Shown: in pieces, positions 10,541 through 63,600 of the stretch
Layout of the letters: the number at the start of each line of letters is the position of its first letter
Position numbering within the stretch: the first letter of the stretch is position 1
From: Tetradesmus obliquus
Lineage: Eukaryota > Chlorophyta > Chlorophyceae > Sphaeropleales > Scenedesmaceae
Assembly: GCA_030272155.1 (NCBI GenBank)
Contig: CP126194.1
Coordinates: 2,347,501-2,411,500 of the forward strand
Length of the DNA stretch: 64,000 nucleotides
Reading direction: 5' to 3'
The notes under the pieces: generated by a model
Databases searched by the model: none
What the model was told of the DNA's origin: nothing
What the model saw: the letters and a program-made list of their open reading frames with translations, nothing else
Made by a program: the position numbers and the translations under genes

Positions 10541-12978
10541 CTACTTCTCCTCTTCGCCCTCGTCCCAGCTCTCGACCGTGAGTGGTGCATCTGCTGCTGA
10601 TTCCGCCTCCTTCAGTGCTGCGTCGTACTTGGCCTGCAGCTCTGTCAGGGCCTGCTTGCGTGTCTGCAGCTCTGCCACTGCTTCCTGCACCTGAGGGTCC
10701 TGCAGGTGTTGACAGCAGCACAGCAATGCAGTGCGTGCACAACAGTGAGCAGGGGTTTATAAAAAGGACGCGTGGCGCATTGTCGTTGCACGTGCATACG
10801 TGCATGTGTAACACCAGCAAGTGCATGGCATGACAATGGCTGCAATTGGTGAGTGTTGCTCTGTTTGCAGCCGAAAGTATATGCGCAATACAGTGCTGGT
10901 TTAGAGGGCCCTGCCCAGTCAAACGCATGATCTTGCAGCTGCCAAAACACAATAGAGCAGCCGGCATCCTGTACAGTCACCAGGGCAGCTCTCGCCGAAA
11001 CAGCTTGACACAACAGCAGCATGATCACACAAGCAGCCGTTCCCGCAAGCATCACTGCCCACCTGGTTGGAGAGGCCCTGCTCTTCCTTCAGCTGCCTCA
11101 CTGCTGCCGCCTGCTCCTGCACTGCTGCTGCTGCTGCATCCACGTCCTCCTGGCTGGGAGGAATCTCAATGCTAGAAGGTGGCGGCTCCTGGCCCTGCAC
11201 TGTAACTACTGTGCCGTCCTCTAGCTCGTACTGCTTGAACACTGCTGCCTGGCCCCACAGGGTGCCTGCAGTGCAAGGGCAACACCGACAGCACAGCAAC
11301 ATACGGGTACAAGCATAAGCTTGGATGAGGTGTAGGGTGTAACGCCATGCATCCAATTATGAACTGTTGCCAGGTACGTTGACGGTCTACACCAGTGCTT
11401 TGCAGCCACTGCACCTGCGTTCATCACACAGTAAAACCTCGAAGTAACGACACATGAAGTAACGACTTTCGCATAACAAGGACACGTCGGGCTGTCCCCA
11501 AAGTGCCCGAAGCGCCGCAAAACTGTCGCGAAGTAACGATAAACAAATAGTAACGACAATTTAGGCTGTCCCCAGTGGTGTCGTTACTTCGAGGTTTTAC
11601 TGTAGCAGCAAAGCGGCATTGCGCACCATTCAGCTCTGTCACGTCTAACAGCTTCGCGCCCTTTACACCGCAAATTGTGACGATGCCTGCTTATGCTGAC
11701 ATGTGAAAAGCCAGCTGAATCAAGCAGCACAACCATCGTTCAGCAGCTGCTGCAGCCGTCGCGCAGCGCACCATCCAGCTCTGTCACGTTGAAGAGCTTC
11801 ACGTCTTTCAGCTTGAAGCGCTTGCCGCTCATGCTGACGCGCCAGCCGCTGTAGTCCTGGATGGAGCCGCCAGTGGCAGCGACCTCCAGCAGCTGGTTGC
11901 GCTCCTGCAAGCAAGCAGCAGTTGCAGGAGAAGTTTAAGCGTGAGCACCAAGCAAGCGCGGTTACGGGTTGCTGGGCAATGCGTGCTGCCGCCGCAAGCG
12001 CTGCAGCTTCGCCTCAAGGCATACGCATGCAGGTCAACCCCACGCCACACCTGCTGACCCGCTCAGAGAAATGTCACCAGCAGCAGAAATGGCGACAGCA
12101 TGTGATCATCCACACGCCGCACCTCCTGTGCTTCGGCGTCTGCTGAGTTGCGTGAGGGCAGGCCGATCATGCTGTCCCAGGTGCCCTCAAACAGCTGCAG
12201 CGCTGCCCTGTTGGCGTATGTGAACACGGGGTCGTCCACGCCCTCCTCAAACTTGTTGTGTGCCAGGCAGGCGAAGGGCGCGATGTACATGGCCTCAGCC
12301 AGCGTGTCAAAGCTGACCTCCATGAGGAACCTAAACAGCAGTCAGGGTTGAAAGGGCAGGGAACATTGTGGAATGCAGTATCAATGCCAAAATGGCTGAT
12401 GCTGGCGGCTGTGCAGCTTGGCTGCACCTGCTTCACTGCAATTGAACGGACTTGTCGAATGCACAGCTGTGTGCGGACAGCTTGCTGCAGCATCACCCGC
12501 TGGAAGAAACCTGCAGCGCTGCAGGCTAGCCTGCTGCCTGTATTCGACCTTGGCTGTGCCTACGCTACAGCAGATGTCAGTATACCCATAGAGCACAAGA
12601 CAGCGTTGCTGCATAGCTACGTAGCAAGCGGCCAGCTCGCCGGCTCACTCACTCATCGTACTGCTTCTTGTATGACTGGGTGATCATCAGCAGCTGCAGC
12701 ACCACCTCAGGATCCTTGTACTGCTCAGGGCTGGCAAAGCCATCAGCAGGTGCACTTTGCACAGCTGCTGCCTGGCTGGCCTGCTCCTTTTTCTTCATAA
12801 GGTCTGCCAGCGCACTGCCACCCTTCTTTTGTGCACCCTTTTTCTCGCCGCCCTTTTTCTTGGCCTGCGCTAGCACCAGCCTGCGCGTGCTGGCAGCAGC
12901 TGCTGGTACAGGGGCCGTGAAAGGCTTGCAGGAAGGCCTAGTGCGGAGCATCTGGGGACCGGTTGCTAAGGAATGCAT
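10541..12978 (-). CDS. MEKHLA-domain plastid protein (342 aa)
   Basis: Five exons: 12653-12978, 12123-12330, 11772-11904, 11063-11265 and 10541-10699. The N-terminus (MHSLATGPQMLRTRPSCKP, then KKKGGEKKGAQKKGG) resembles a chloroplast transit peptide followed by a Lys-rich linker. The MEKHLA domain, a PAS-like fold known from plant HD-ZIP III proteins and stand-alone plastid or bacterial proteins, runs from about residue 85 to 235. Seen there are YKDPEVVLQLLMITQSYKKQ, VFTYANRAALQLFE, MIGLPSRNSADAEAQ, IQDYSGWRVSMSGKRFKLKD and TLWGQAAVFKQYE. A C-terminal coiled-coil-like tail (EAVAELQTRKQALTELQAKY) ends in an acidic EGEEEK. The function of such proteins is unknown; sensing or scaffolding is a guess. 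Intron 3 contains a MITE and a decayed copy of part of exon 3. The start region faces the H3 gene across 439 bp. Confidence 0.85.
11429..11602. mobile_element. 174-bp MITE with perfect 25-bp terminal inverted repeats
   Basis: The left end (11429-11453, beginning CAGTAAAACCTCGAAGTA) is the exact reverse complement of the right end (11578-11602, ending TTCGAGGTTTTACTG). The element is followed by TA and preceded by CA, as expected for a TA target duplication with one changed base. The termini starting CAGT-AAACCTCG resemble those of Tc1/mariner-group pogo/Tigger-like transposons. The AAGTAACGA word is repeated just inside both ends (11442, 11456, 11530, 11549). There is no transposase frame, so it is non-autonomous. 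Because the ends are perfect, the insertion or its last mobilisation is probably recent. It lies in intron 3 of the MEKHLA gene. Confidence 0.92.
11617..11712 (-). repeat. decayed duplicate of MEKHLA exon 3 end
   Basis: GCGCACCATTCAGCTCTGTC at 11621 nearly matches GCGCACCATCCAGCTCTGTC at 11766, inside exon 3 and its donor. The similarity continues, with gaps, to about 11712 (CATGCTGACGCGCCAGC-type end). The offset is 145 bp. The MITE lies immediately to its left. The copy is too diverged to be spliced in frame. Confidence 0.75.
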
Positions 12979-13417
12979 GGCTGGCAATAATCACTGGTGG
13001 CAGCAGCAGCACGCGCTTGGCGGGAGCAGAGCAGCAGAAGCAGCCACAGCAGCAGCAGCCCAGCGAGTCAGGCTAGGCGGACGAGATACTGATGATGGGA
13101 CACGAGATTGCAACCACTGGCAAAGTACTCAGAAGACTTGAGCGCTGGCAAAACACCTGTCAGTGACCAGGTGTCATGTCTGGCAGGCTGCCTCTTGGAT
13201 GGACACTGGGCCTCTTCGATGTCGATTGCTATCAAGCTATATGTTCAGAAAACCTTTCTGATTGCACACGGAAGCTCTGCTTGCAACCGTGCTGAGCCTA
13301 GCTCCACTCGAGACTTCGTTTTGCAGGCCTTAAATTGTGTATGGTCTTGAACAAGAAAAGGCTATAGCCAACTAGTCCGCAGGTGTGGCCTTTGGCCTTG
13401 CAAGGACGCGGTTCGCT
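12979..13417. promoter_or_regulatory. divergent intergenic region, MEKHLA (-) and H3 variant (+)
   Basis: The start codons of the two genes face away from each other across 439 bp, so promoter elements for both must lie here. No TATA box or named element could be assigned with confidence. There is a short AGCAGCAG run near 13001-13060. Confidence 0.5.
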
Positions 13418-15008
13418 ATGGCGAGGACAAAGGTGCGTTGTTCGACTCAGTGCACTGACCGACTTCAGTATTGCTGCTGTAACATAGATGCAACCTGCTT
13501 GTGCGCGTCGGCGTGGCAGCTGCGGCATTGCTGAGAATGTGGCAGCGTGCTGTGTGTGATAGGAGTGTGAAGGACTCAACACTGCATGGTGTGAGCCCGC
13601 ATGCAGCGTGATGGCCACTTAATCGACGTATACAACACGCTGTGACATGCCGGGCACGCTGCTAAGCTTGGCTGATGCCTGGTTAAGCTGGATGCACTGT
13701 TTCAATGGCAGCAGCAGCATCAGCAACACCATCACATTGGGTGCATCACGCATGTCCTCAGCTGTGCATGTCCGTGCCGTTTGCATGCCTTTCCTGCAAG
13801 CAGCAAACAGCAAGGAAGACCACAGGTGGCAAAACCAGCCTGCTGGCCAAGAAGATGCGGCAGGTGACAGCAAGGAAGAGCGCAGTAGCCAGCAAAGGCA
13901 TCAAGAAGGTGGTGGCCACAAAGGTGGCTAGGAAGTCTGCTGTCAAGGTGGCCAACACCACCGTCAAGCACAAGCGCCCCACAAAGCGCGGCACAGTCGC
14001 ACTGCGGTGAGTCCTTGGTCAGCCGGAAGGCTGCGCTGGAGAGCAATCGACACAGCAGGCCTGCGGCAGCACTTTCACCATGCGCATCCTGGACATTGCG
14101 GTACATTGGCGAACATTGGGTTTCTTTCTGTTTTCCGTAGTATAACAAGGAAACATGGTCTTAGCTCACGCGAGTGCATGTTCAAGCAAGTGCGCCATGT
14201 ACGCTCCCTGCTCCCTGCAGTGAGATCAAGAAGTACCAGAAGTCCACAGAGCTGCTGCTGCGCAAGGGCCCGTTCCAACGGCTGGTGCGCGAGGTGTGCC
14301 AGGAGTTCAAGGATGACTTCCGCTTCAAGACGGATGCGCTGCTGGCGCTGCAGGAGGCAGCAGAGGCGTACCTGGTGAGCCAGCATTGAGGAGGACGCAC
14401 TGGAACACAGCAGCACCAGTGGAAACACCAACAGCAGAGTCAGCAGGAACAGCCACAGCAGGGCGTGAAGCAAGAGCTGTGCTGCGTGAACGGTGGGGGA
14501 CAGCAGCTCAGGGTGGTTTTTGGTGCTTATAAGGGGGTTCTCAGCTTGCCTGCGCTCACGCAAGTGCAGCAGCAGGGTGCATGTGGGAGTCATTGGTGCT
14601 GCGGTGGCGCAGAGCGAGTTCTTCGACTGGCCACTTATCTTGTGTTGCTCCTGCTGCTCCTGCTGCTGCTGCTGTAGGTGGGCCTTATGGAGGACTCCAA
14701 CTTGTGCGCCATCCATGGCAAGCGTGTGACTATAATGTGAGTGTGCAGTAGCAAGCTAGCGTGCGTGTTTATTTGTCTGCATCTTGATGTTACAAGCAGG
14801 CCAGATGTAGTGCCCTGCATCTGCTGAGCATCTGTGCAGCAGGACATGCGCATGGGCTGTCTCTGGTTGTGAAGTGTCGCCGGTGAAGTTGAGGTCGCTG
14901 CCCACACTGTTCTCACCACTGCCCCCACTGCTGCTGCTGCTGCTGCTGCTGCCATGGCGCAGGCCCAAAGACATGCAGCTGGCGCGCCGCCTGCGTGGCC
15001 AGCGGTGA
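13418..15008 (+). CDS. histone H3 variant with enlarged N-terminal tail (158 aa)
   Basis: Five exons: 13418-13432, 13804-14006, 14221-14374, 14678-14736 and 14963-15008, all phase-consistent. The start [15 protein letters not shown] and the fold region ([80 protein letters not shown]) identify H3. Canonical H3 is 136 aa with Met; this one has about 23 extra residues in the tail and one fewer at the C-terminus. About 19 core positions differ from the usual sequence, so it is clearly a variant. Loop 1 has no insertion and AEAYLV is kept, which argues against CENP-A/CenH3. The tail has three ARK(S/T) motifs, at Lys 10, 30 and 49 counting Met. The gene has four introns. A pseudogene copy follows 2.6 kb downstream. 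Confidence 0.9.
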
Positions 15009-15985
15009 TGCGGCAGCGCATGCGCAGCTGCACCTGGCACGGCTGTGTGCAGCTGCTGGTGCATGCCTGTGCACACGAGGCTGCAGATATGCGGCTCTCA
15101 GCGCAGGATTGGAGTTACAGGAAGACATACAGCTTGGCTTTTTGCGGTCTGCAGTTATGACGCTGGGGGGATTCAAAGGTGATGCCTTGAGAATGCAGAT
15201 GCAAGTCTGCGTGGTGGCTGCAGCTGCCACATGTTCTCTGATAACAGGCACACTGACAGAGAGCAGGGAGGGGCATGGTGTGTGCTGATAGCAGCGGCAA
15301 GCTGCTATCAGCCACCTGGCATGTATACTACTAGCAGCAATAATCAGGTGGTTATGGTTTCAGCCGGCGGGGTGGGGTAGTGTAGGCTTGTCTGCGCTCT
15401 CTTGATAGATGACCTCATTGCATTGTTCTCTGCGCTCAAGTTGCTGTTGCCTTGAGCGGGTTGAAACCAGTTGAACAGTGGTACAGCTGGTCATGTGCGG
15501 CCTTTTGTACATTGTAATTTCATCACATTTCATGTAACGTACCCTCGTCGGCTGCTGCAATCGTCAATGGGGCGGGCATGGCTGCAGCCAAGCGTAACAT
15601 TTTCAGCCCCTGCAGTTGGTTGGACGTGGCTGGTGTTTGACGCAGACTGGCTGTTGTGTGCACAAAGCAGCCCAGCTGCACAAACCAGGCAGCTGCCAGA
15701 TACTCACCTATCTTGTACAATGGACTTATCAAAATAGCTCTGTGCATACTTGGCAACCTTTCCAAACATACAAGCGGCTGCTACGGACATTTGTTGCTGC
15801 CAGCAAAACCCTCGAGGCTTGCAGCACTCGGTGGTCCAAGGTGACAAGTTGACAGCCGGGGGTTCCCTTGGCAGTGACAAGCATGAACAAAGCAAATAGA
15901 TCGTGCATAATCTACAGCTTCAGTCTCATTCCATAGTCCGGAGACTCAGCCTGGCGTGCGCCTGACGACATCTGTGCAGTTTTCG
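15009..15985. other. spacer between H3 variant gene and its pseudogene
   Basis: No gene seen. TGTAA words at about 15512 and 15533 could be poly(A) signals, but they lie some 500 nt past the H3 stop. Confidence 0.45.
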
Positions 15986-17353
15986 ATAGGGAGGATAAGG
16001 GTGCGATTGTCTCGTTGGCAAAACAAATGCTAGGAAGTATCTACTGATGCGCATGACAGCCATGAACAGCACTACGAGGCCAATTGCGAGGGTTTCCTAC
16101 TGCGTGCTGTGTACACACAGTGCAGATGTAGCAAGCACTGGGGCAATTCAGCGTCCTTCTTGCCACGGGTTTGCTTACGAAAGCATACACAGACCTACTG
16201 TAAACGCCTGGCGACTGTAATGGCAGGTGGACTCACAGCAAATGTGCTGGCTGGAGTTGCAACAGCAGCAGCAACAGCAGCAGCAGTGATGTGGGCTAGC
16301 TCCGCCTGAACTCTTTCGTCCCTTACCTGTCTTTCTCCTGCCACAGCAAACTGCCAGGAAAAGGACAGGCGGCGAACCCAGCCTGCTGGCCAAGAAGCTG
16401 CGGCAGACACATGCGAGGAAGACTGCAGTAGCCAGCAAGGGCGTCAGGAGGGCACTGCACACAGCAGTGGCCAACACCACCGGCAGGCACAAGCGCCCCA
16501 CCCCTCGTGGAGAAGCAGCGCTGCGGTGAGCTGAGCTGGTCCATCCCTGCCTCTAAACAAAAAGCAGCTGTGGCGGGACCGGAAACACCACAGCAGCAGA
16601 AGACACAGCATGTGCAGCCCGCCCTGCAGCTGCTACACTGCATCACAAATGCACGCCAGCCATTTCCTCTTTTGCCCTTGACCATGCTGCTGTAATGGAG
16701 TGTATATGCAGTGCAACAACAGCAGACACAGCATCAGCAGCTGTGCCTGCAGCCATTACAAAGCACTATGAACGCATGCTGGCCAAGCATCACAAACCCA
16801 CTTTGCCTGCCGGACTGCTGTGCCACGGCGCCCTTCCCCACTGCAACAGTGAGATCAAGAAGTACCAGAAGTCCACCAGCCGCTGCTGCCCAAGGCACCC
16901 TTTGACCGGTTAGTGCGCGAGGTGTGCCAAGACGTCAAGGCAGCCCTTGCGTTCAGGAAGGATGCGCTGCTAGCGCTGCAAGAGGCAGCAGAGGCGCACC
17001 TGGTGAGGCCAGGTGGTAAAGGCAGTGCAGTGCAGCCCAGCCGCTGGGTCAGCCTCAGCTACATGGCAGCAGCGCATGCGGCACAGCGCCATGCAGCATG
17101 GCACATAAAGCACAGTGCAGCGCGGCTGGTGCTGGTGCTTGCGGCTGCATGGTTAGTGTTACATTTAGCTTTGCCAACAAGTACACATAGTGATAGGCAT
17201 GTAGCGCTGCAGCTCAAGACAGTGCAGCAGCAGCAGCAGCAACAGCCATGAACGCCCCTTCAGTTTCTTTATCGCGCATCTGTGCTGTCTGTTGCTGGCG
17301 TGCTGCCGACTGTTCTGCCGCCGCGGCTGCTGCTCCTGCTCCTGCTCCTGCTG

Positions 17354-17411
<58 letters not shown>

Positions 17412-17933
17412 AGGTCGGTCTCATGGAGGACAGCAACCTCTGCGCCTTCCATGGCAAGCGCGTGACAATCATATGAGTGTGCAGGGCATTGAACAGCATG
17501 CTTTGAATGTGATGCCTGCACATGCGATCTTGTTTATGGCAAGGCTGGGTTTGCTGTGGCACTGCAGGCATACACCCGAGATTTGCAACTGTTCATTGTT
17601 GATTTGTGCGTCAGGGGTGTGTAGGACTCAGATGAGCAGCACATGCCAGGTGGCTTGAGCAGCTCTGTAGGAAAAAATCTACGACAGGAGAGCAGGGCTG
17701 CAGGACGGCCCCAACAGGGGTAGCTGCAACACGTCTAACACTCATATATGCTGTGCACGCTGTATAGCGTGGGCCCAGCGATGCATCAGCTGCTGCCATC
17801 CCTTGTTGTTCCCGTGGTATAATGCACCAATGTGGGCCGCTGCGTGCTGCTGCTGCTGCTACTGCTGCGGCCACCGTGATGCAGGCCTAAGGACATACAG
17901 CTGGCGCGCCGCCTGCGCGGCTCCGCACAGTGA
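15986..17933 (+). pseudogene. pseudogene copy of the H3 variant
   Basis: All five exons of the upstream H3 gene have counterparts: 15986-16000, 16347-16525, 16850-17002, 17414-17472 and 17885-17933. Exon 1 reads ATA where the start ATG should be. Exon 3 is one base shorter than in the intact gene (loss near 16877), which shifts the frame and gives a stop within about ten codons. The exon 4 donor reads AT instead of GT at 17473-17474. Exon 2 also lacks 24 nt of tail relative to the intact copy. The remaining frame is still readable ([58 protein letters not shown]), so decay followed a full-length duplication. Confidence 0.88.
17335..17411 (+). repeat. CTG triplet run abutting a 3' splice site
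   Basis: Imperfect then pure CTG repeats end in TAG at 17411-17413, directly before exon 4 of the H3 pseudogene. The intact H3 gene has a much shorter CTG run at the equivalent place (about 14655-14675), so the run expanded after the duplication. Confidence 0.85.
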
Positions 17934-18583
17934 TGCCGCAGCTGCAGCGGGGCCAGCTGGCCTTCCCTCCATCACGATGCTGCAGCCGCCGCAGCCATTT
18001 GATGCTGCAGCCGCTGCAGCCTCACGATGCTGCAGCCGCTGCAGCCACATTATGCTGCAGCCACTGCAGCTGCCGCAGCCATTTGATGCAGCCACGTTAT
18101 GCTGCAGCCGCTGCACCACTGGCAGGCAGCTGCATGTTGCCGTACTCCTGGAAGCGCTGGCCACAAAGGCGGGTCACGCAGCTCAACGTGCAGCCACTGG
18201 CCAGCTCAACACGGCAGTGGAGACCTTAGACTGCTATGACAACTTTGACAAATGACAGTTTGTGACATACCGCGTGTGGTCAACACCACAGCCTGCAGCA
18301 GGCCTTGAAGGGTGCAGCATGGGTCCAGCTGCTGCCACAGTACATGTTGTTTGGGGGCAGGATAGGAACACATTTCACGCGTTGTATAGAGATACTGAAG
18401 TTGGAATAACGTGTTTTATGCTTGTGGTGGTGCAAAACCGGCACAGCTGCACCATTTGCTGCCTGGACAGGTGTCTGCTAACATGTGCTTGATGGTGACC
18501 GGGCGTGGCTGTGGCATACAGTGCTTGAACCACTGCTACCTGTGATACTACGTCAGGGCAATTGCCGCACTCTTCTTCTTTGC
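17934..18583. other. non-coding, with a GCAGCC-type minisatellite
   Basis: Between about 17975 and 18115 the words GATGCTGCAGCC, GCTGCAGCC and CCGCAGCCATTTGATGC recur several times in shuffled order. The rest shows no gene. Confidence 0.6.
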
Positions 18584-18805
18584 TTACCTGGATTTTAACC
18601 TTTGTCTGGACGCACGTGCTTTTTGTCTGTAGCTCATACTTGTTGGCACAAGGGTCCAGTCAGACACCAGAATTCTTCCTTCGAAGGGCGCAGAGGGCAA
18701 CTGTAGAAGTTCGCCTGGATCAGGCCTGGTGGCAGTGAGCACATGATGTCGCACTGTTTGATCACGGATGAAGAACCAATACGCCGACACCGTTCTGAAT
18801 GTCTC
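18584..18805 (-). other. orphan coding-like exon, family unknown
   Basis: An open frame follows a plausible acceptor (TTCACACAG at 18806-18814). It reads ETFRTVSAYWFFIRDQ, then HHVLTATRPDPGELLQLPSA and FEGRILVSDWTLVP, with a possible donor GTATGA near 18649 and a stop at 18584. The composition is unlike the triplet-rich noise nearby and looks protein-like. No partner exon was found on the minus strand within 1 kb. It may be a gene fragment or a piece of a mobile element. Low confidence. Confidence 0.3.
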
Positions 18806-19157
18806 CTGTGTGAACACAATGTTGTTGGTTTTCAGTCCAAGGTACCCACTTGGTGCCTCCTAGCCTTTTGGCAGCTCGCCAATGCCTGTGGCCTGCCAGG
18901 CCTCAAGCGGGGGCGAGATGGAATGTGTGCTGCTTCAGTATGGCAAATATCGCAAGCAATAAACCTTGCATGCACTTGCTACCTTGAGTGTGTTGCAGTA
19001 CTGCTTTCAAAACGTTCAAAACCCTACCCGCCAGTTCTGTCGAGAAGACAATCTGCACCGCCCTGCAGGTGCATCACGTTGTTTCGCACACACGTAGTTT
19101 CCGTTTGATCGACTTAAACATAAGCAAGTTCTGCTTCTATCATCAAGCTTGAACGTG

Positions 19158-21935
19158 ATGGCGTGGTTTGACAAGCACCGCGCTTGCGACGATGGAAACA
19201 AGCATGAAGGCAGCTTGGAGTTGATCACTTGGAACGGAAGAGACTACATGGGCATCGAGATGGGTTGGGGAGTGCGAGGCGCTGTTGGACGGCCTTCGTC
19301 TGCTTCAAGGCTACTGCACAGCAACAGTCCCGCAGCCCAGCCACCTTGTGCGAGAATGTTGATGGCTGCATGCCAGCTGATACCTCGTTTATAATCATAA
19401 TCTCAATAGTTTCTCAAGAGGAAACTGCAGCAGCATGCAGCCTCACTGATGCTGAGTCATCAAAGTGCAAGGTTTTCAAACTGGATAAATGGCGGGCTTC
19501 TTGCTGCTGCTGCAGGTGTGACTTGCAGGAATGTGAGAATGTGCGACAAACCTTTCTGACAAAGTATGGGGGAGACGAGGCCAAGTTTTCGAGTACTGGT
19601 GAGGCTGTAGCTTTGCAGCAGTTGTTCTTTGTGCGTGAACTAGCCATGCAGCAAGTAAGCAGCACTGCCCTGCTGCTGTCCACAGCCCTCTCCTGCAAGG
19701 GCTACACACGTTACAGGTTCTCCCATCATCGACTCATGTGTATAATACCCTGGGTTATAGCCATATGCTTCATAACAGCTTTGTAGCTGCCGTGGAAGCA
19801 GGCTATGCTGCCTGCATGCACAGCATTCATTGAAGGTCCAGCACAGCTCCAGGCCAACCTGCCAGCAAGCACAGGGCACTAGTTGCACACGGTTGTGTGC
19901 GCGCAGACACTTCTGCTATGGAAAAGCACATTCCAAGGTTGCTTCTCACAAAGCTGTTGTGCCTTGCAGGCCTCAGGGCTTCAGGTGGACCTGCTGCGCA
20001 GCAACAGGTGCGCAGTGCAACAGCAGACAAGCTAGATCATCTGGGATGATCCTGCAACTGTTCAGACACAGCCATAACGTACTTGCCAGCAGCAGTGCGT
20101 AACAGCGGCTGTCAGTGCTATGTCATAGGATGCAAGCATGCACAGCAAGATTGTCCTGCAAGCTGTGAGAACGACGCCTGCTTGCAGGAAAGTTGCATCG
20201 CCCAGGGCTTGAGCTGATTTTGAATGCCCGTCACTGCCTCATTGCTGCCGGCAGTGCGCAGCACACAGCGGCAATGCTCAAACCGAACAGCAGAGAACTT
20301 CTGCCATTGCCTGACACGTGAAGCTGCCAGCCCAGACCCATCGCTGCCATGCTTCTTTTCGTGCAGGCGACAAGTCTTACGGCTGAGACCACCACGGCAC
20401 AGGCAGCAAGCCCTGCTGCTGCGACTACTGCGGCATGGGGAAGCCAGTGCCTGATAACATCCTCAGGCAGAACCCGCAGGCCTGCAGGGGCCTGGCACTG
20501 AGCTGTGGCCCAGACCCTAGGTGAGGCCAGGGTTTGGGTTTTTAAAGATCTTCTGCAAAACACATGCTGTGGCAGCGGCGTACGTATATATCTACAGTGA
20601 ACATGCTGAAGGTCAGGCGGGTGGCTAGATGGCAGGTGGATGGAATTGCTGTGCATGTATTAAGGTTCGACAAAGCAACACATCTACGCTGCAGCAGAAG
20701 CAGATGTACAAGAGCTCCCTGCATCACAACACAGCAGCACAGCACAGCACACAACATACTTGTCTGTACCGTGTGCCCTGCAGGTCGTTCAATGCCGCAC
20801 AGGCTCAAGTCAATGAGATGGTGCGCGGCTTGCTTGGCCTGGACCTGTGAGTGCTGCTGCATGCTTTGGCCTTGGCGGCTTGAGTGGCAGGCTGCTCAGC
20901 CAGCCGTGTGATGTTGATATCAGCGTGCCACGCAGTGCATGCATGCGATAGATGGTGCAAGTTCTTCCATGCAGCCCCAACAGAAACATGCATGGACGTA
21001 CAGCCACAGCATTGACATCACTCGAGGTTGGTGCGGCAAACTGCTACAATACAACCTGCCTTCCACCATCAAAGGTCGGAAGATCCTACCACAGCACACA
21101 CTGACACAGGATTTGTCCCCCCGCTCACCGTGCAAATGCTGCCTTGGCAGGGGCAATGGCAACAATAGCAACGGTGCCGCAGCACCCTCACTTTTTGGTG
21201 GCTTGACTGGCCTCCTGGCCATGGCAGCGAGGCTGACAGGCAGCAACTCCCCATCAGGGGCTGCAGCATTTGCTGCTGCACAGGAAGCAGCCCTTGCTCG
21301 TGGCGGTGGTGGAGGCAGCAGCAGCAGCAGCAGCGGCACAGGCCATAGCAGCAGTCAGGGGCCCTCAACTGGACACAGCAGCAGGCCTGCACCTTCAACG
21401 GCAGCAGCAGGGGCAAGGGGCCACGTCACCAGCAGGGGCAGCAGCAGCGCGGCAGGGCGTTGCTGCGGGGTTTGTGGTGAGTCCAAGCCAGCAGGGGGCT
21501 TCAAGTCAATGAAGAAGTGTGCCGGCTGCCGGGCAGAGTACTACTGCTCAAAATCATGCCAACAAGCAGGTGAGGCCGCACAAGGGGTTTGAGTATTGGC
21601 GCTGTTAGGACGGCTTGGATGTGCACTGGATGTCTGACGAGCTGGATACTGCACCTGGTGTTACAGCATGGCAAGCCTGTGGCAGCATGCGAGATTTCAA
21701 ATTTCAACATCCCTAACGTAAGAACCAGAAGTGCTACAGCCTGTGGCCGCGTTGTCGCATGACATGCTTGTTTTGTGGGTGATGAACCCACGGACTAAAT
21801 GTCTAAACGGGCCTAGTATTGTGTTTTTGCGCCCTCTTTTGCTGCGCAGCGTGGCCAGGGCACAAAATGGAGTGCAAGGAGAAGCGCAAGGCACTGCTGG
21901 CAGCAGCAGAAGCAATTGCAGAGCAGTACTTTTGA
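19158..21935 (+). pseudogene. tandem copy 1 of MYND zinc-finger gene, disabled
   Basis: Exons corresponding to copy 2 lie at 19158-19271 (approximate end), 19516-19598, 19970-20007, 20367-20520, 20784-20846, 21151-21569 and 21850-21935. Exon 2 is 83 nt against 84 in copy 2, a one-base loss that shifts the frame. Exon 4 has TGA at 20384-20386 where copy 2 has TGC (Cys). The exon 1 donor region has also shifted phase. Downstream exons are intact and encode CCDYCGMGKPVPDNILRQN, a Gly/Ser/Ala linker, and a MYND-type Cys cluster (CCGVCGESKPAG, KKCAGCRAEYYCSKSCQ, WPGHKMECKEK). Intact 3' exons beside broken 5' exons suggest recent inactivation, or expression from an internal start. An assembly error is the alternative. 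Confidence 0.72.
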
Positions 21936-22929
21936 ACGGAACGATCCTGAGATGGTTGGTTCTCTTCCGGCTGAGTCTAGTGCTTCAGAGACTGAGTACT
22001 CTGAGCTTGTTGAGGTCTCCGACGCTCAGTGTCTGTGTTTCTGTTTTGTGCTTTCTGGACCCCATGAGCCTTGTCTGGCTCCTTAGTGGGTGGGCTTGTG
22101 GCCCTACTTTGGTAACTGGTAACTGGTAACTGAACAGCATGTTGCTGTCGCCGACACCGGCGGTTGTGTAAGCTGGCTTCAGGACCCACATGTTACTACC
22201 TCCTCCGTTCTCTGTTGCCAACAGTGTTTGTGCACCAGCGTGGTTAGAAGCACCTGCCCTCATGATGACAATGTCACATCGTCAGGAGCATGGTGCTCCT
22301 GTATGCTCTGCGAATTGCAGGGCAAACTGCCATAGCTGCACACGCGGTGCCTTGCCAGCTGGTTTTTATCATTATTTCAGCATCGTATTGTGTAGAGAAT
22401 ATGTCTGTGACATCAGTTGGCATATTGGTTTGAGGCACAGCGGAGAATATTGAATGTAATTTTTCTGGATTCACCAGGGTTGAGTCCTGGTGGCAGCTGA
22501 TATATAGCAGGGGGTGTGGCGAAGGCATTACACAGCACCATTTTTCCCCAGCAATATGTATGAATTTTCATGTGTGGAATGAGTTTAGGTGGAATGAGTT
22601 TAAGTATTCATGGTGAATATGCTGAACAGGTATTGGTCAGCCTGAACAGGTACTGATCAGCCTGATAATATGCCTCCAAGAGGCTGAGCCTCAATTTTCC
22701 CTGCGCTCACCCTTGGCTGAGACAAGTTCGACTGCTATGACTGCGTTTGGAGCACTTGAGCACTGCAACGAACGCGTGCGGCGGACCTTGCTGCCCTCAT
22801 GGTTGGCAGTACTGCCCTGCCAAACCCTACCCGCCAGATGTCTGTGTCATACAGTTCACCGCCCTGCAACTCATCAAAACAAACTTGAAACTTAGTTTAC
22901 GCTTGATTCGAATATTGATCGTGTACGCA
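21936..22929. other. spacer between the two MYND copies
   Basis: The 3' end of this region (from about 22790) is homologous to about 18985-19157 upstream of copy 1 (shared AACCCTACCCGCCAG and CACCGCCCTGCA words), so the duplicated unit includes the 5' flank. No other gene seen. Confidence 0.55.
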
Positions 22930-28322: not shown

Positions 28323-28353
<31 letters not shown>

Positions 28354-30206
28354 AGCAGACTGTGCAGCAAGCGGTTGGGCATGTGCTAGCTGTTGTGCCT
28401 GTGTCAGCTGCTGCATCTGTTGCGCCTGCCACAGCTGCTGTAGCTGCTGCTGCTGCTGCTGCGCCTGCGACTGCGCAGTAGCCTGGCTTGGCCGCGCATT
28501 GATTGCTGCCAGGTGTGTGGCCAGTGCCGCTGCTGCTGCTGGTGACAGCTTGACAGGCTCCGGGCGGATGATGCTGTGGGAGTCCTGCTGCTGCTGCTGC
28601 TGCTTTTTGGCGGGCCTGCAGGCATGTACAGCACAGCACCAGCTTGCGGTCTTCAACACATTCAATCGGTTGATACGGGCATTGTTATTATTCAACGCTG
28701 CGGCCACATCACTTGCGCAAGCTTTGCTGTGGCTATTGTGTGCATTACAGCAACACTTGCTGCCTTGTCTGTGCCCAGCACACCCTGCTGTTGACTGCCA
28801 TAACTGCACGGCTACCGCAAGCAACACCCTCTGCCAGGAGCCAGAAACAGTCCCCACCTGCTGGTGCCATCTTGCCCTTCTTGCTGCTCCAGTGTGGGCA
28901 GTGACAGCGCACGTTTTGGTGCCTGCTGCTGCTGCTGCTGCTGATGGTCCTGTTGCTGGTCAGCATGTGGCACGAGCCCATCGTCTACCTGCATACTGTC
29001 ACCAGCAGCACCCTGCTGCTGCACAACTTGCGACTCGTCTTGCTGCTTGGGCTCAGGCTGCTGCTGCTGCCGGCCGCAGCATGGCGGCTGTTCCACAGTG
29101 TCTGACATACCCGGCTGCTGCTGCTGCTGCTGCACTTTCTTGCGCAGGTTGGGGTGCTGCTGTATGTAGCGCCTCAGACGTGGCTGCAGCTCAGGGCCAC
29201 ATCCTTGCAGGAAGTCCGGCTCCTCCACCATGAGCTTGATGGCTGCAAGCACCACCTGGGGCAGAAAGAAAAGTTTGACAGGTGGACAGGTGATGAAGGC
29301 AGTGAGCAAGCAGAACGATAACCAGTAGATACAACAGAAATCAATGAATAGCAGACACGGAGTGCAGGAAGTGTGGTTGTTGCACCGTGATCTTGATGGC
29401 TGCAAGCACCACCTGGCAAGGAGAGAGAAGGTGCAAGTGTAACAAATGCCGCGTCACGCATGTGGACAGGTGACCGATATGGTGAGGGCAAGAGAGAGGT
29501 CGACACATGGGGGACAGATAAAAACATATGCCCAAGCAGTGATGTGAGTGACAGTGGCATGTATGAGTCATGCATAGGAGCGCCATCAGCAACATACAGC
29601 TGCTTGCGTGTGAGAGCACTGTGCCCTGCACACATCCAAAAGAATAAGGCTGCTCACGCACAGGACTGCAGCGGCGTTGCTGTCTGTTGGAAAGCTTAAC
29701 GTGGCGTGCCATGCACCTCCCTGCTGGATCGCCTGCTCACCTCATTCTTGCTCCTGCTGGGTATGGCGTGAGCCACTTGGTCCCAGTCATCACCATGCCT
29801 GCAGGCAGCCAGGCCATTGATTGGAGAAGAAGAGCAGCAGCAGCAGCAGTTTAATTAAGGGGCTGAACATGCATAATGCATGTGTATAAGCCCATAGCTC
29901 GGCAAACAACATATACACAGCATATACACAGCATATACAGCAGTTGAGACGGTCGTGCCCACCATGGGCCAGTGGCCATGGTCAGTTGTCCAAGGCAGTT
30001 GAGTCAGCACTACCCAGCCAGCATACTACTACCCTGCCGGCATACTACAGCAGAGAAAGCTCTACGTGCACCAAGAACAGAACAACTCACTTGCACAGCC
30101 CCTTGTGCAGGTCTTTCCTCTCCTGCTGCGACCAGGCCTGTGCATCCCAGTCAAAAGCCTCAACCTGCTGCCACACTCTGTTGAGCTGGCCAAGCACCTC
30201 TGCCAT
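26740..30206 (-). CDS. SANT/Myb-like domain protein with long Gln/Ala-rich tail (815 aa)
   Basis: Four exons: 30091-30206, 29741-29798, 28858-29255 and 26740-28615. The start ATG at 30206 gives MAEVLGQLNRVWQQVEAFDW. A SANT-type domain follows at about residues 20-75: WSQQERKDLHKGLCKHGDDW, then DQVAHAIPSRSKNEVVLAAI. SANT domains bind histone tails or DNA in chromatin complexes, so a nuclear role is likely. The rest (about 700 residues) is Gln, Ala, Pro and Gly runs, encoded by CAG/GCA triplets, with a few less biased islands (SLLSIPQDFVAG; DLVGIDFMYVARIARRAAAI). The tail ends in an acidic ETVSSAEDETGSSL. The last exon alone is 1.9 kb. No catalytic domain seen. A partial copy of exon 3 lies in intron 2. 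Confidence 0.8.
29356..29412 (-). repeat. duplicate of the start of SANT exon 3 with its acceptor
   Basis: GCCAG then VVLAAIKITVQQPHFL reads from 29412, against VVLAAIKLMVEEPDFL from 29255 in the real exon. The offset is 157 bp. It keeps an AG acceptor in the same phase, but the frame ends at a stop shortly after (SAIH-stop), so using it would give a short protein with only the SANT domain. It could be a remnant or an alternative terminal exon. Confidence 0.75.
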
Positions 30207-30983: not shown

Positions 30984-31055
<72 letters not shown>

Positions 31056-36755: not shown

Positions 36756-39700
36756 ATGTTCAAGCGCAGAACGAACTTTAGTGTGCCATTCAAGGGACCA
36801 GGCGCCGCAGGGACCAATAGCCAAGCAGCAGCATCTGTCACAGTAGCAGCAAACCCAGCACAACCAGACCATCAAGACAGTGAGAAGGACGCTGAACAAG
36901 AGAACCATATTCCGATGCCTGTCCAAATGCCGGCGTTTAAGAAGCCCAAGCTCTTCCAGGCACCAGCAGCTGCGGCTGGAGCACAGCAGTACAGCAGACA
37001 GGCAGCACCACAACAGCCAGCACCCGCCGCATCAGCAGCAGACACCGCTGCAGGAGAGGCGATAACATTTGCCGTGTTGTACACCAAGCGCGCAAAGTTC
37101 TCGGTACGCAGCATGCATGCTCATAATCACTGGCCTGGCAATTTGGTCGTTTTCACAATACAAATTTAAGCACCCGGCACTTGGTGTGGGAGCCAGACGT
37201 CTCTGCTATGCACTGGCTCACATGTGGTGGCATCTTCAGCACCATTCACATCATCCGACTGCCTACTGCATCACTGGCAGTGAACATGTATCCTGTCATG
37301 CACGTATGTGTCACCACCTTTGCGTCAGCAGTTCAGTGACTGAGCTGCCGCAGCTGCCACTTCTTTGCTCACAGCCTCACTCAATGTATCGCGTCTCAAC
37401 TGCCTGGCAATGCAGAAACGCAATGACAGGGGCTTTGCGGATGGTGTGATGGAGCTGCAGCTTGCAGACAAAGCAGCTACGCTGTATGACATGGAAGGCA
37501 AGGTGGGCAGCAGCAAGAGCACACCTGCTTGCAGGAAACGTGGCAGCTGGTGTGCTCGGGCGTCGATGAACCACTGTGCCAACAGCTAGCAAGCAGCAGC
37601 AGCAGCATGCATGATGCACTGTTGTGCCCAACATCAGCAGGTTGTGGCTGGCCTACACAGCTGAACAACAGCAGCAGGGACACCATCGAGGAGCACTGGC
37701 TGCAACAGTCCACAGCTGCACCTCTTTGAAGAATCGGCGGTGTTCAATCTGACCTTCAACCATGCTACCTCCTGCGCTGCCTCCTGCACTGCCGTTACTG
37801 CTGCTGCTGCTGCTGCTGGTGCTGCCAGGTCATCACCAAGGGCAAGCTGGCCAAGCTGCCTGCTGAACTGGAGAGCGGCAGCATCCTGGAGCTGGGCAAC
37901 TTCGTGGCAGAGTACGACAAGGACATTAGCACCGAGGACTACAAGTGAGCACTGGCACATACAGTGCATGTACAAATGTTTGTGTCTTGCTCGATGAGGT
38001 GGCGGCGTGTGTACTGACTGCAACGCCAGGCTGCAGGGGTGGGGAGACGTTGCTGATTAGCAGCGGCAATTCCTGCAAGGCGAGGCTGCCACTTGACTAA
38101 GATGTTTCGCCTCGTAGTTGGGTCTGCCTATCTGCTGTGCAAGGCAGGCATGCTTGCGGCTTTGGTTTTTTTGCTGCTACATCATGTTGAGGATGATTTT
38201 TAGCAGTCTCTACTCATGTGCTTATGCTGCTGCTGCTGCTGCTGCTGTGCACCGTTGCGGTGTTTCTCCTCTTGCCAGGCGCGGCACATGCTTCACAGAC
38301 GCCTGCAAGCTTGCCGCACAGGGCCCCGCCAACCCCTTCTCAGCAGCAGCAATGCCAGCCTTCAAGCCAACAGCAGGCCGCAAAGCAGGAGGCTTGCGGC
38401 CTAGATCGCTGCAGAACAAGCAGCAGGGCCCTGGTGGCTCTAGCGCAGCGCCAGCAGCTACTGCACTGTTTGACCCTGCAGCGCCGGGGGCAGTGGTGGT
38501 GAATGGGCAGCAGTGGCAGGAAGGCAAGGGCAAGCTCAGTGGAGGCAGGCCAGTGGTACCTGTGGTGAGCAAGTCATGTGTTACGTTTCCTGGGTTACTG
38601 CGGTCCTGCATGAAGCAGGCACAGGGTTGTTGACTTGCAAGCGAATGCAGTAATTCAAGGGCGTATGTGAGTTGGTAGTGCTTGATCCTGCAGGACGGTG
38701 GTCCTGCAGGAGGTCTACCACTCGACCCATGTCTGCAGCACCTGCTCATATTGCAAAATGGACCGCCAATGCATTGGCCAGCAACCATCTGCATGGTGCC
38801 TCTCAGCAGCACCTATGCTGCAGTGAACTTGTCTCGTACCCTGCAGCTCTCTGTCACACACATACCACAGCCCTAACTGGCACCCCTGCCACCCCCTGCC
38901 CTGTTGCTGCGCTGCTGCTGTATGGCTGCCTGGCTGTGTACAGGTGATAGACCCGTATGTTGGCCGCCACCTGCGACTGCACCAGCGCGAGGGCGTCACG
39001 TTCCTGTACGAGTGCGTCATGGGCCTGCGCAGCGACCAGTACAGCGGCTGCCTGCTGGCTGACGAGATGGGCCTGGGGTGAGTGAATGGGTGTGGCAGCA
39101 TGCATACGAGATTGGCCTGGGGTGGGTGAGGGCGCTGGCAGCGACCAGTACAGCGGCTGCCTGCTGGCTGACGAGATGGGCCTGGGGTGAGTGAATGGGT
39201 GTGGCAGCATGCATACGAGATTGGCCTGGGGTGGGTGAGGGCGCTGGCAGCGACCAGTACAGTGGCTGCCTGCTGGCCGACGAGATGGGCCTGGGGTGGG
39301 TGCGGCCGCCAGCAGCATGCATGACGAGATGGGCCTGGGGTGGGTGTGTAGGGTCCGGCAGCATGCATGGCATAGCTGCCATGCAGCCTGGTGTTGTTAG
39401 CTCCTGCTAACAGCAGCAGCAACAGCAGCAGTGGTGTCTGAACACGGCTAACAAGGAATTGCGGCAACCACCTGTTGCTGACAAGGCACACCTCAGTACT
39501 ACTGGTATAAGTGGCAGCAAAAGGAAAAATTCATCTGTCAACCGGAGATGCTTGCATAATTAGGAGTTTGGTTTGCCGTTAGAGCATGCTCGTGGCTGAC
39601 AGCAGTTGCATGCTCTGCTGCTTGCCCTGCAGGAAGACGCTGCAAGTGATTGCGCTGCTGTGGACCCTGCTGAGACAAGGGCCTGAGGTGGGGGGCGCGC

Positions 39701-54391: not shown

Positions 54392-59022
<4,631 letters not shown>

Positions 59023-60593
59023 GTTTGAGCCAGCAAACAGTGAAGGCACTGTGAACGGCAAGCTGCAGGCAACGGTAGTCCTGTTTCACGGGTCGTGCAG
59101 GCAAACAGAAGCGTAGTAAAAACAACACGACCAATAGCTTTAGCTGATCATGAAGGAATCACGTTCTGCAGCACCTGTTCTGTACTAGGGCTCTACGCTC
59201 ACTCTTCCGCGATTGCATAAGCACGTCGATACGTAGAGTTTGGGCCCGATCAACGCTGTATCAGTTTAAATATGTTATCTCATAAGCAATTGGCTTGTAT
59301 GCATATGCCCTGCTTGCATGGCTGATGGGGTAGGAAAACCTAGTACTGCCTCCACCAGGTGCTCACATGCCTCCCTGACTTATGTGCGATATCACAGGTC
59401 AAAGAGCGGCTGACGCTCACTGGCCAATTTCAGCCTGATCCAAAGTATTTTGAGCCAGCGGCTTCACCATCACCCAACCCCAGTGTGAGTTGCCGATCGT
59501 CAAGCTACTTGCTGAACTTCAGCTGCCAGCTTGCACAGCTGGTGTGACACCACCACCAGCCAGGCCATGTGGTATGGCCACTTTGCGATACATGAAACAG
59601 AGCAGCTGAAAGATCATGCGGCTGTTTCCAGGCCTTCCTCAGCTTGTGCAGCTGTGGGCGCTTGGCCTGTCATCCGCAGACTGGGCAACACCAGCAGTTG
59701 GGTGCATGGCAATGCATGAAGGTATGCGTAAGCCACGCCATTGTCGTTAGGGCTCCCCAAATGAAGACGTGACAGCCATTTATCGTGTCAGCTGGATGCT
59801 GTTCTGAGGCATCACCTGGCAGCCTGCGGCACTGACTTTTTGGCAGCACTGACATTTTCAGCCAGTCTGTGCCACAGTCTGCAAAAGCATGTTGTGCAAC
59901 AACATCGATGGTATCAATCTGCGTGCTCAGGGCTTAGCTTATCGCCATGCATCTGGCCTGCATTGAAAGATACTCCAGTCGCAACCAAAAAACAGTCCTG
60001 CCTTAGCAGGCCAACACGCAACACCAACTGCAACAGCAGGAGACTAGCTGGCAAACACATTGCATCGTGTGGCAACACCGCCACAATGCAGTTCAACAAC
60101 GTATACACTATGCTGAGCTCTTTAACTAAAGTCACACCACATATGAGGCCCATCACAACAACGCAGTTCTTGCAGCACATGAGCAGCAGGGTCAATTGTA
60201 ATGACTTGTATTGCGTTCACATGCAGACACAGTGCCGTGGGCAACGCAAGGCTGAGTTGTAAGCTGGCTGATGTCCATGCACTTGATCACTGCTTGCATG
60301 GACTGCATGCGTAGAACGCATATCAAATCTTGAGAGCATGTGCAGAACAGAAACATACTTTACTGTACATGGATCGCACACGACTGCTGCAACCCCACTC
60401 AACCAACTCAACCTTGCCAACGAAATCAAACCAAACCAGCAGTTGCTCTCTCAAGTGCCCACTGCTACAACCAAGCCCCACTTGCCTCACAGCCCTGCAG
60501 CCTTGCTCAGCCGCGCCTCGGTTGCCGTTTGTACTTTGCCAACAAGAAGCAAATCAGCCGGGGCTATGCCACCAGCCCACAGCTGCATCCAGC
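59023..60593. other. intergenic between LACS and AGT2 genes
   Basis: About 1.57 kb with no supported exon. The left part must hold the AGT2 promoter and the right part the LACS 3' flank, including one unit of the 107-bp repeat. Confidence 0.5.
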
Positions 60594-60635
60594 TCACAGC
60601 CCTGCAGCCTTGCTCAGCCGCGCCTTGGCTGCTGC
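60487..60635. repeat. 107-bp tandem duplication at the LACS stop codon
   Basis: TCACAGCCCTGCAGCCTTGC and the following CTCAGCCGCGCCT occur at 60487 and again at 60594, where they encode the last residues and stop of the acyl-CoA synthetase. The left unit is therefore a copy of the 3' coding end in the 3' flank. Confidence 0.9.
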
Positions 60636-63600
60636 TGCTGCGTTGATGCTCTGGTACATCAGATCCAGCTGCGCCTGGTAGTGCTGCTGCAGCTGCGGCC
60701 GCTTCAGCTTGAAGGTGGGCGTCATGAGGTCGTTGTCAACGCTGAACTGGCTGCAGTCTGTGTGCAGGGCCTTGACCTGCTCAAAGCCGGCAAGCTTGCC
60801 GCTGCGGCCGGCTGCCTGCAGCTCGCTCAGCAGGAATGCACGCGTCTCCGGGTGCAGCGCGACATCCTGCAGTAGGCACGAGAATATATGTTATGTTGGT
60901 ATGTTAAGATGGCGGCACAGAGTGTACGTCAGCATTATGTTGGTCGGCAGTTAGCCTGCAAGATGTGGAGACGAGCGGAGTCGTGAGAAGAGCAGATCAG
61001 GGCAGCCGCAGCCAACACAATAGAGACCCCAAGCAGCAACCCACGGCTGGGCCACTCAGGCGTGCATGCCTTGTGTATCGTTAGGTCTGCAGAGCTCAGG
61101 ATTGATGAGGCAGGTGCCGGCTGCCTGCCCGCAGCTGCTGTTGCAATGTAGCAATTGTTTTTCAAAAGCGCACCTGGTAGGTGCCGCGGATGCCCCTGCC
61201 TGCCGCCCATGCCATGATGGGCTTCTCTGCCGGCACCGCCACCGCCACCAGGCAGCTCTCAAAGCTGTTGCCGTACACCCACACCTGCTCCACCAGCGGG
61301 CAGGACTTGAGCACGTTCTCAATCTTCTCCACGGCAATGTACTCGCCTGCGAGGTGCGGCAGATACAGGCAGGGTAGCATGTCAGTGCCTAATGCGATTT
61401 GATATGTAGCACTGAAAAGAGACCCTGCTGTTACAGTACAGCGACGTTGCCGGTGTCTCTGTCTGGGCCGCACACTAGACTTGTCAGCTCACGTGTGGCA
61501 TCTTGGTGTGTAACATTACCAAGGTGTGTGCGAGCTGACAAGTACTGGTGTGCGGTCCAACCAGACACATTGGTTGATGCTGCTACTGGTGTGCACCAGG
61601 CAGTATCAGGGGAGTGTGTGTGCAGGGCTGCAGCGGCGGCAGCAGCAGCAGCAGCGCTCACCCTGTGCCAGCTTGAAGATGTTCTTCTTGCGGTCGATGA
61701 CCTGCAGCGTGCCGTCACCCACCAGGCGCGCAATGTCGCCGGTGTGGAAGAAGCCGTCAGCGTCTGCGCAGCAGCAGCACCAGCAGCAGCAGCAGCAGCA
61801 GCAACAGCAACAGCAGGGAAAAGCCTGATCGTCAGCCAAGGCAGCGTGTGTGTTGCCGAGAGGCTACAGCCTCAGCTGATTATATGCTCCCATGCAGCCA
61901 GCGACTAATCAGCTGTCAGACGCAAGCGCACCGCAACAGCAGCCACCATACAAACTCAAGCACACACACAATGCTCTGTTTACTAATCAGCAAGGGGCTA
62001 TGCAGCTGCAGCCAGGCGTTGTCACAGAGTACACACTCACCGATGCACTCCTTGGTAAGCCCCGGCTGCTTGTAGTAGCCTGAGAACAGGCCTGGCCCGC
62101 GGATGCACACCTCCCCGGTGGGCGGCTCAGCTGCTGGGTCGTACCCCATCTCTGGCACTGCCTCCAGCCGCACCTCCACGCCTGCGGCAGCAATGCGACA
62201 CAACACAGCTCAGTACATTCCAGTACATTTCAGTAATGTAAACGCATTTTCAGGATTGATACCTGCAGGAAGCCACTGCCAGTGGCCCATTTCAGGCGCT
62301 GCCTCCAGCCGCACCTCCACGCCTGGTGCAGCAGCCAAAGGCAGGTGATGCTGTGAATCTTATCGTCGGCATTACGTGAACCTGGCTGGGGGGGCTGTCA
62401 CTGGCAAGTTGGATGTATGTAGAAGATAACACAACACGTGCAGCCAACACTGGATGGTTGGCGAGGATGTCATAAGCAAATCATTCAATCTCAGCACGAT
62501 GCGCATTGGCAGCATCACGCACCTGGCATGGGTGCGCCGACTGTGCCGATGGTATCCCAGCGGAAGGGCTCCGCAATGCTGCTGGCGGCACACGTCTCAG
62601 TCAAGCCGTAGCCCTGCAGCACCGGCGCACACATCGCGCAGGACAGGAACTCCTGTGTGGGCTGCGCGAGGGGCGCTGCGCCGCTGAGGATGAGGCGCAC
62701 GCGGCCGCCCAGCTTGGCCTTGATGGCGTTGAAAGCGAGGGCGTCTGCCAGGGGTGAGGCCTGCATGCATCAAGCGCGGCACAGTGTGAGGATGCTAAGG
62801 TTTGATTTGTGTGTGCCAGCAGTCGCCCAGCTTGGCCTTGATGGCGTTGAAGGCGAGGGCGTCAGCCAGCAGCGAGGCCTGCATGTGTTAGACAGGGAAC
62901 AGCAGCAATGGCACAGCACAAAGTGTGGGTGTGTCTGGGTGTGGTGTGTGCCAGGAGGCTGCCCAGCTTGGTCTTGATGGCGTTGAATGCCAGCGCATCA
63001 GCCAGCGGGGAAGCCTGGTTGCAAGCATGCGAAGCACAAGATCAAACGACTTGATTGTCAGCGCTGTCGCCTGGCGACACATGGCAGCCAGCGCCAAACA
63101 CTGCGTGCTTTGCACTGCAAGCCGGCTGCAGGTGGTGCTGCTGAGCTGATGCTGCCAAGGTGCCGGCAATGCTTCGTGTCTTCATTGTCTGCAGCTCACC
63201 TTGTCGTGCTTGATGCCGCGCTTCATGAAGTACGACTTGCGCCACAGGCACAGGTGGAACACCAGCCACTTGAGCACATTGGCGCGCAGCTGCGAGCAGG
63301 GCAGAGACAGCACAACAGGCATCGCTGTCAGTGCTCAGCCTGTGCAGCATACGCACGCCCTAGGCCATGCCCTTTTAGGCACACAGTGCTCGTGCTCCAG
63401 CAACAGCTTGCAGGTGACCACTGCTTGGCTGCAATTTCTCCACTGCCCCTTGCAGCACCTGCTGTTCGCCCTCCTGCTGCTGCTGCTGTTGCCGCCGCGC
63501 ACCTGCTCGTTGATGCCCAAGCAGGTGCATTCGGACAAGCTGCGGGCCAAACACGCCGCCTGTGAGCCTCTCTATTGGTGTTTCACCAATAGAAACCCAC

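Follow-up and report, generated by a model that had tools for sequence, protein, structure and literature searches.

Copies of exon edges in the introns of the green alga Tetradesmus obliquus, a probable product of genome-wide short tandem duplication

In the green alga Tetradesmus obliquus, the edges of exons, together with their splice sites, recur as short head-to-tail copies in the adjoining introns. The phenomenon is real and genome-wide, as seen in one genome through a 0.3% sample and home-made gene models, and consists mostly of short tandem duplication that leaves exon fossils, combined with a protection or precise placement of the copies that simulated neutral decay does not reproduce. 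In the explanation that we consider probable, short tandem duplications occurring across the genome leave superfluous exon edges behind and make introns longer, with an additional factor that protects or places the copies. The assembly used (GCA_030272155.1) comprises 104.70 Mb in 17 contigs, with a GC content of 56.5% and 15,224 genes (PMC12571836); a second T. obliquus assembly of 17 contigs is GCA_030272055.1. The analysis started from a single 64-kb stretch of GCA_030272155.1 (C4:2347501-2411500), here called the window.

Local duplicates were identified by self-comparison of the DNA, with a family defined by E <= 1e-4 in a fixed search space and copies less than 600 bp apart; pairs with more than 30% simple repeat, pairs at least 600 bp apart (including a histone-like pair at 13792-17942) and a CAG-rich repeat at 49049 were excluded before counting. 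The window holds 11 families above this threshold, whereas none appears in sequence simulated with a second-order Markov model over the whole length analysed (window and sample, 304 kb). Reading of the sequence, together with exons delimited by hand, places a splice site within eight of the 11; one more holds the stop codon of LACS (60486/60593), and two (873/1058 and 54915/54977) touch no known exon edge. A first-pass annotation of the window had described splice-site-carrying tandem copies in at least five genes, and this description is borne out: exon edge and splice site are duplicated into the adjoining intron in MEKHLA, SANT, RAD54B, AGT2 and LACS (Table 1), with three such events in AGT2 and, in LACS, two events plus the stop-codon pair and an 18-nt donor pair (63500, 63779) that lies below the threshold and outside the 11 families. 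The duplicates in the five genes are 38 to ~110 bp long, spaced 87-157 bp and present in at most four copies. In all eight splice-site families the donor-side copies lie downstream and the acceptor-side copies upstream of the exon, that is, on the intron side. The gene identities are supported by Pfam matches for MEKHLA, Myb/SANT (PF00249) and AMP-binding (LACS), and by homologues for AGT2 and RAD54B; the AGT2 gene is 99% identical to T. obliquus A0A383WHZ5.

Table 1. Exon edges and their copies in five genes of the window
Feature	Positions	Strand	Basis
MEKHLA exon end and donor (source)	11766..11803	-	self-comparison, reading; Pfam MEKHLA
MEKHLA exon end and donor, intronic copy, 145 bp off, 87% identical	11621..11658	-	
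SANT/Myb acceptor and exon start (source)	29206..29259	-	self-comparison, reading; Pfam PF00249
SANT acceptor and exon start, upstream intronic copy, 157 bp off, 85% identical	29363..29416	-	
RAD54B exon; exon end and donor are array source	38944..39077	+	reading, hand exons; annotated protein P0241
RAD54B intron, two more 109-bp copies of exon end and donor	39138..39346	+	self-comparison
AGT2 exon end and donor (source), 87-bp repeat	55695..55793	-	self-comparison, reading
AGT2 intronic copy in decay, with AT in place of the donor GT	55608..55696	-	self-comparison, reading
AGT2 exon end LPAVHK and donor (source)	56432..56477	-	self-comparison, reading, protein alignment
AGT2 intronic copy LPAVYK with intact donor, 115 bp off	56317..56362	-	self-comparison, reading, alignment
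AGT2 exon; acceptor and first ~55 nt are source of four-copy array	56871..57109	-	reading, hand exons
AGT2 three intronic copies of acceptor region and exon start (57185, 57306, 57424)	57185..57492	-	
LACS last codons and stop codon (source)	60593..60632	-	self-comparison, reading
LACS C-terminal codons and stop, copy downstream of the gene's stop, 107 bp off	60486..60525	-	
LACS acceptor and exon start (source)	62145..62192	-	self-comparison, reading
LACS upstream intronic copy, 141 bp off	62286..62333	-	self-comparison, reading
LACS exon, source of three-copy array (62703 x3)	62523..62760	-	reading, hand exons, Pfam
LACS two intronic copies of acceptor and exon start (62819, 62955)	62819..63038	-	self-comparison, reading
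LACS exon end and donor GTG (source)	63779..63796	-	exact match search, reading
LACS exact 18-nt copy of exon end and donor start, 279 bp off	63500..63517	-	

The individual arrays differ in the state of their copies. In RAD54B a triple repeat with a 109-bp period begins at 39029, and the donor core GGCCTGGGGTG occurs six times between 39070 and 39342, once as the used site and five times as an extra one, with GT kept in all; the repeat is nested, the exon end and donor core recurring at 44-bp spacing within each 109-bp unit. The annotated T. obliquus RAD54B protein (P0241, OEZ86_006234) and AGT2 protein (P0001) each contain the duplicated segment in a single copy, as far as annotation, and not reads, can tell. 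In the four-copy array of AGT2 (57055 x4), no donor was seen on reading directly behind the copies at 57185, 57306 and 57424. In an alignment of ten AGT2 proteins, the LPAVHK column has His in P0001 and Tyr in the other nine, whose contexts differ somewhat (EVYK, AVYE, EVYR, EAYR, EAYK, AVYK). Since the Tyr of the intronic copy at 56317 is common to these nine proteins, that copy looks like a record of an earlier state of the exon. A paralogue was considered as the source of the AGT2 copies and rejected, as the search of the organism's own genome found a single place among the best candidates scored. In the stop-codon copy of LACS (60486..60525), similarity stops one base past TGA.

Several other features of the window were recorded. 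The MEKHLA intron contains a 176-bp element (11428-11603) with 26-bp perfect terminal inverted repeats, which has 16 other matches in the genome, ten of them at 89-93% identity and two of these ten partial; it looks like a MITE. A gene for Nse1 of the SMC5-6 complex (PF07574, 30895-33517) lies a few kb from RAD54B. The gene at 13792-17942 has a histone fold (Pfam Histone), by eye that of an H3 variant, possibly centromeric; four diverged fragments of the gene, 71-86% identical, lie some 2.5-2.9 kb downstream of it. At 49232-49528, a 48-bp repeat of about six units lies in CAG-rich sequence within a long reading frame, and the window is rich in further long CAG/CTG runs.

For comparison with the rest of the genome, 20 kb at 1.0 Mb was taken from each of the contigs C1-C12, giving a sample of 240 kb and, with the window, a total of 304 kb, or ~0.3% of one genome. 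The sample contains 90 families, or 3.75 per 10 kb (block range 0.5-7.5), versus 1.7 in the window; the earlier impression that the density of the window is unusual was wrong, and the window was discarded as a duplication hotspot, the sampled blocks being denser on average. Over the 304 kb, 101 families are direct and two inverted, one of the latter being the terminal repeat (26 bp) of the MITE-like element in the window. The spacing of the best pair in the 101 families has a median of 136 bp (quartiles 115 and 191), and 58 of them fall at 100-159 bp. Short head-to-tail tandem duplication with a period of mostly 100-160 bp is thus a genome-wide process within the sampled 0.3%. Similarity extends over at least 85% of the period in 35 of the 101 families (full-period) and over less in the remaining 66 (truncated), with similar median spacings of 129 and 142 bp, respectively (KS p=0.10). 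A 71-bp perfect direct repeat with copies 206 bp apart (block C3 16096-16372, L007 6096-6372) is unlike the other families; it appeared tRNA-like, and ARAGORN found no tRNA there.

Introner elements have changed the intron content of green algae on a genome scale. The T. obliquus copies resemble them in the scale of the change and differ in that the spacers form no visible repeat family: among 65 spacers there were seven short spacer-spacer matches, and 14 of the 65 matched elsewhere in the blocks, at CTG/CAG-rich or local repeats as far as these matches were read. A mobile element or introner was accordingly rejected as the origin of the spacers, with no shared repeat family found among the 65.

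The relationship of the duplicates to splice sites was quantified using gene models from a splice-aware HMM trained on 13 hand exons and sampled DNA, which recovers 13 of the 13, a partly circular result. The final gene finder was masked and anchored, an earlier self-training version having degenerated into CAG repeats by nine rounds; outside the hand-read genes all models are its own, and in some cases, RAD54B among them, it mistakes intronic copies for exons. A predicted splice border is crossed by at least 8 nt in 61 of the 101 families, versus 38.5+-4.3 when the annotation is rotated within blocks (window alone, 7/11 versus 3.5), and exactly one copy crosses a border in 35 families versus 21.9+-4.1. 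Duplicates in the 304 kb therefore cross predicted borders 1.6 times as often as in rotated annotation, and the condition that the first-pass annotation had named as refuting its view, namely that duplications fall on splice sites only at the expected rate, does not hold. The excess is weaker in full-period families (26/35, null 20.9) than in truncated ones (35/66, null 17.6), and at >=88% identity it is absent from the former (5/8, null 4.7) and present in the latter (17/34, null 7.6). Borders are crossed by 9 of 22 pairs at least 92% identical (null 5.7, p=.08), 23 of 37 at 85-92% (null 11.9) and 29 of 42 below 85% (null 20.9), so that the excess is not clearly tied to age.

Among families at least 90% identical, 26 of 31 (84%) are truncated. 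Predicted exon ends coincide, within -2 to +12 nt, with one end of the similarity in 29 of the 66 truncated families (null 5.4+-2.2), in 16 of the 26 that are at least 90% identical (null 2.1+-1.4), and in 6 of the 35 full-period families (null 2.7). Example donor copies end 5-9 nt into the intron and acceptor copies start 2-6 nt before the exon; others extend 18-23 nt. Copies of their own border are found in 44 of 429 predicted introns, with a median length of 464 versus 257 bp, an excess that is partly expected because long introns have more room. A published comparison (PMC5966456) gives T. obliquus introns a mean length of 462 bp, against 230-302 bp in four other green algae.

Where the copies are still alignable, divergence at codon positions 1, 2 and 3 and in the intron is.084,.091,.164 and.168, from 52 HSPs, each spanning 25 or more exon columns and 30 or more non-exon ones; there are several HSPs per family, so that they are not independent. 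These values fit 1:1:2:2, suggesting that one exon copy is constrained and the rest is free. For 19 exon pieces, two or more intronic copies are available; counted by codon position, 7/4/27 changes are confined to the exon and 49/35/77 to intronic copies. The latter count includes changes of the functional lineage between successive duplications, so that a ratio between 1:1:1 and 1:1:2 is expected, and this is roughly observed. Single arrays vary, with intronic-copy changes of 5/2/2 in AGT2 and 4/4/20, far on the coding side, in a RecG-like array. Differences between exon and intronic copy are more biased toward third positions than 1:1:2 over 57 pairs (94/67/223), and the 30 truncated pairs also show a third-position excess (41/27/104). 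The subsets at least 90% identical give 6/0/24 (14 pairs, chosen post hoc) and 4/0/12 (eight two-copy truncated pairs), small numbers that are a hint.

The RecG-like array belongs to a helicase gene in block C11 (L022-L023), in which the intron at 16274-17548 contains six further copies of the acceptor and exon start. Two of them encode stretches of 32 and 44 residues that are identical to P0121, the RecG protein of T. obliquus, and the others are more changed. The protein-identical copies differ mostly at synonymous sites. Between the intronic copies at 17079 and 17314 there are 2/1/13 differences at codon positions 1/2/3. P0121 (OEZ85_005629, another T. obliquus record) has a single copy and agrees with two intronic copies, not with the local exon, at two residues (SLA vs SLT, KQQ vs KQA). 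Further along the gene (19020-20000) there are second copies of two later exons, the duplicated exon at 19020/19215 being uncertain.

Neutral decay was simulated with exon-like and intron sequence turning over equally. Such simulations yield 2-42% truncated pairs at >=90% identity under five indel settings (18-27% under two settings), and 8-12% of truncated pairs ending at a border. With intron turnover three or six times faster, border-ended pairs rise to.57 or.71 (>=90% identity) and.44 or.60 (all), near the observed values, and truncation at >=90% identity reaches.36 or.64, still below the observed.84. Of 53 two-copy truncated pairs, four of which could not be scored, 11 showed residual homology of spacer and flank by local alignment, against an off-diagonal rate of.012 per test; an end-anchored test, judged underpowered for indels, detected it in 3 of 54. 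Simple survivorship, in which old duplicates stay visible only where one copy is constrained, has the right direction and was rejected, since in simulation the observed truncation and border-ending are not reached. The first-pass annotation had offered, as its alternative, that the locus is prone to short duplication and that intronic copies persist by being harmless; this holds insofar as duplication is genome-wide and head-to-tail and alignable copies decay freely, and falls short in that borders are crossed in 1.6-fold excess and neutral simulation misses the ends of similarity. The data require an extra factor beyond neutral decay.

On the reading that we consider probable, short head-to-tail duplications arise throughout the genome with a period of mostly 100-160 bp, as their abundance, orientation and spacing show in the sampled 0.3%. 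Where a duplicated unit spans the edge of an exon, one copy remains attached to the rest of the exon and functional, and the other copy, with its spare site, lies in the intron, as the geometry shows in five genes. The intronic copy stays outside the protein in the annotation of AGT2 and RAD54B, and takes up changes at all codon positions where exon and intron can still be aligned. The outcome, judging from intron lengths and a test of intron register, would be the lengthening of introns with exon fossils and not intron gain. The extra factor would be either a slower loss of the exon-like part compared to the surrounding intron, or a mechanism that sets the ends of copies at the edges of exons. 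At the molecular level, the duplications probably stem from staggered breaks or paired nicks that are filled in and then closed by end joining, a repair that yields short direct duplications. Paired nicks in plants reportedly lead to short tandem duplications. The short duplications described at staggered breaks (Pol alpha-primase/CST, end joining; available text of PMC8355091) are likewise head-to-tail and require no prior repeat, and differ from those in T. obliquus, which are most often spaced 100-160 bp apart and survive as fossil copies.

Alternatively, exon edges could be copied as such, either as exon end plus splice consensus or as coding end plus stop, to a position ~100-160 bp off and in the same orientation, via splicing-coupled repair, recombination with a diverged homologue or exon-templated conversion; we regard this as unlikely. 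Two related proposals are more doubtful still. In the first, homology-dependent maintenance, the intronic copies are repeatedly converted by the functional exon after tandem duplication as the spacers lose homology, which would explain both the truncated pairs of high identity and the similarity ending at exon edges, and would accord with simulations that need exon-like copies to change 3-6 times more slowly than the intron. However, third positions and intron diverge equally where aligned (.164 vs.168), which shows no extra homogenisation of the exon part, and the third-position excess in truncated pairs is not explained by conversion; we consider such maintenance improbable.

We assign an equally low probability to the second proposal, that the second copy came from a diverged allele or strain, joined by repair or recombination between diverged homologues. 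The predominance of third-position differences in truncated pairs, the lack of homology in most spacers, the end of similarity at a splice consensus or stop codon, and the match of two RecG intronic copies to OEZ85_005629 where the local exon differs would all be compatible with it. Yet ~10% divergence at third positions should leave introns alignable, the intronic Tyr of AGT2 is absent from the other T. obliquus protein P0001, and the RecG matches are explained equally well by a retained earlier state.

It is quite improbable that selection maintains the copies as alternative starts of exons or as mutually exclusive exons. The 2/1/13 pattern of the RecG copies at 17079 and 17314 and the presence of both AG and GT in the RAD54B units are in line with such a role, but the exon-start copies of AGT2, LACS and RecG, which include an acceptor, have no nearby donor on reading, some arrays drift over all codon positions (as in the intronic copies of AGT2), the coding part of a copy in block C10 (17016) carries a one-base length change, and annotated RAD54B lacks the extra units.

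The least credible proposal, to which we give almost no weight, is the intron gain put forward in the first-pass annotation, by which a duplicated AGGT-containing exon segment supplies the donor and acceptor of a new intron: CAG|GTG is indeed frequent in the duplicates, and our gene finder parsed the units of RAD54B as exons of 45 nt, in frame and furnished with AG and GT, but among 384 predicted introns with 46 intron-duplicate links only one is in exact register, that is, with the donor junction in one copy mapping to the acceptor junction in the other (introns of 50-700 bp), and it is a coding peptide repeat mis-split by the gene finder, many of the non-exact links being its frame-preserving pseudo-exons, and the annotated RAD54B and AGT2 proteins are single-copy. 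The T. obliquus copies share with this model (the Rogers/Hellsten model; Hellsten 2011, as cited in the available text of PMC4974935) a short tandem duplication with AGGT or a splice site, and differ in that no new intron bounded by duplicates was found here and old introns appear to grow. A comparable case is the potato RdRp gene (Ma et al. 2016, PMC4974935), in which a duplication covers one exon boundary with a spare splice site; the available text of the paper mentions an 83-bp duplication inside an intron as well. In the potato gene, RNA reads showed that a cryptic donor had given rise to a newly spliced intron, whereas the T. obliquus copies stay in the old intron, are known from DNA and annotation, and recur genome-wide. 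Since a boundary-crossing duplication made an intron in potato, the T. obliquus copies may be seen as raw material, of which the sample contained no finished product. In the open-access literature searched, we found no description of exon-edge copies in T. obliquus introns.

The origin of intron sequence is a long-standing question, and in T. obliquus about one predicted intron in ten (44/429) holds a copy of its own border. As the copy-bearing introns are longer, the growth of introns may be followed directly in the sequence, with the constrained exon as a reference for dating, and since copies keep apparent earlier states of the exon, as with the Tyr of AGT2, changes could be polarised within one genome. 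If the exon-like parts outlast the neighbouring intron several-fold, there would be an unrecognised mechanism or a form of selection to find; and if exon edges are indeed copied as such, the introns of this alga would gradually be composed out of the exons beside them.
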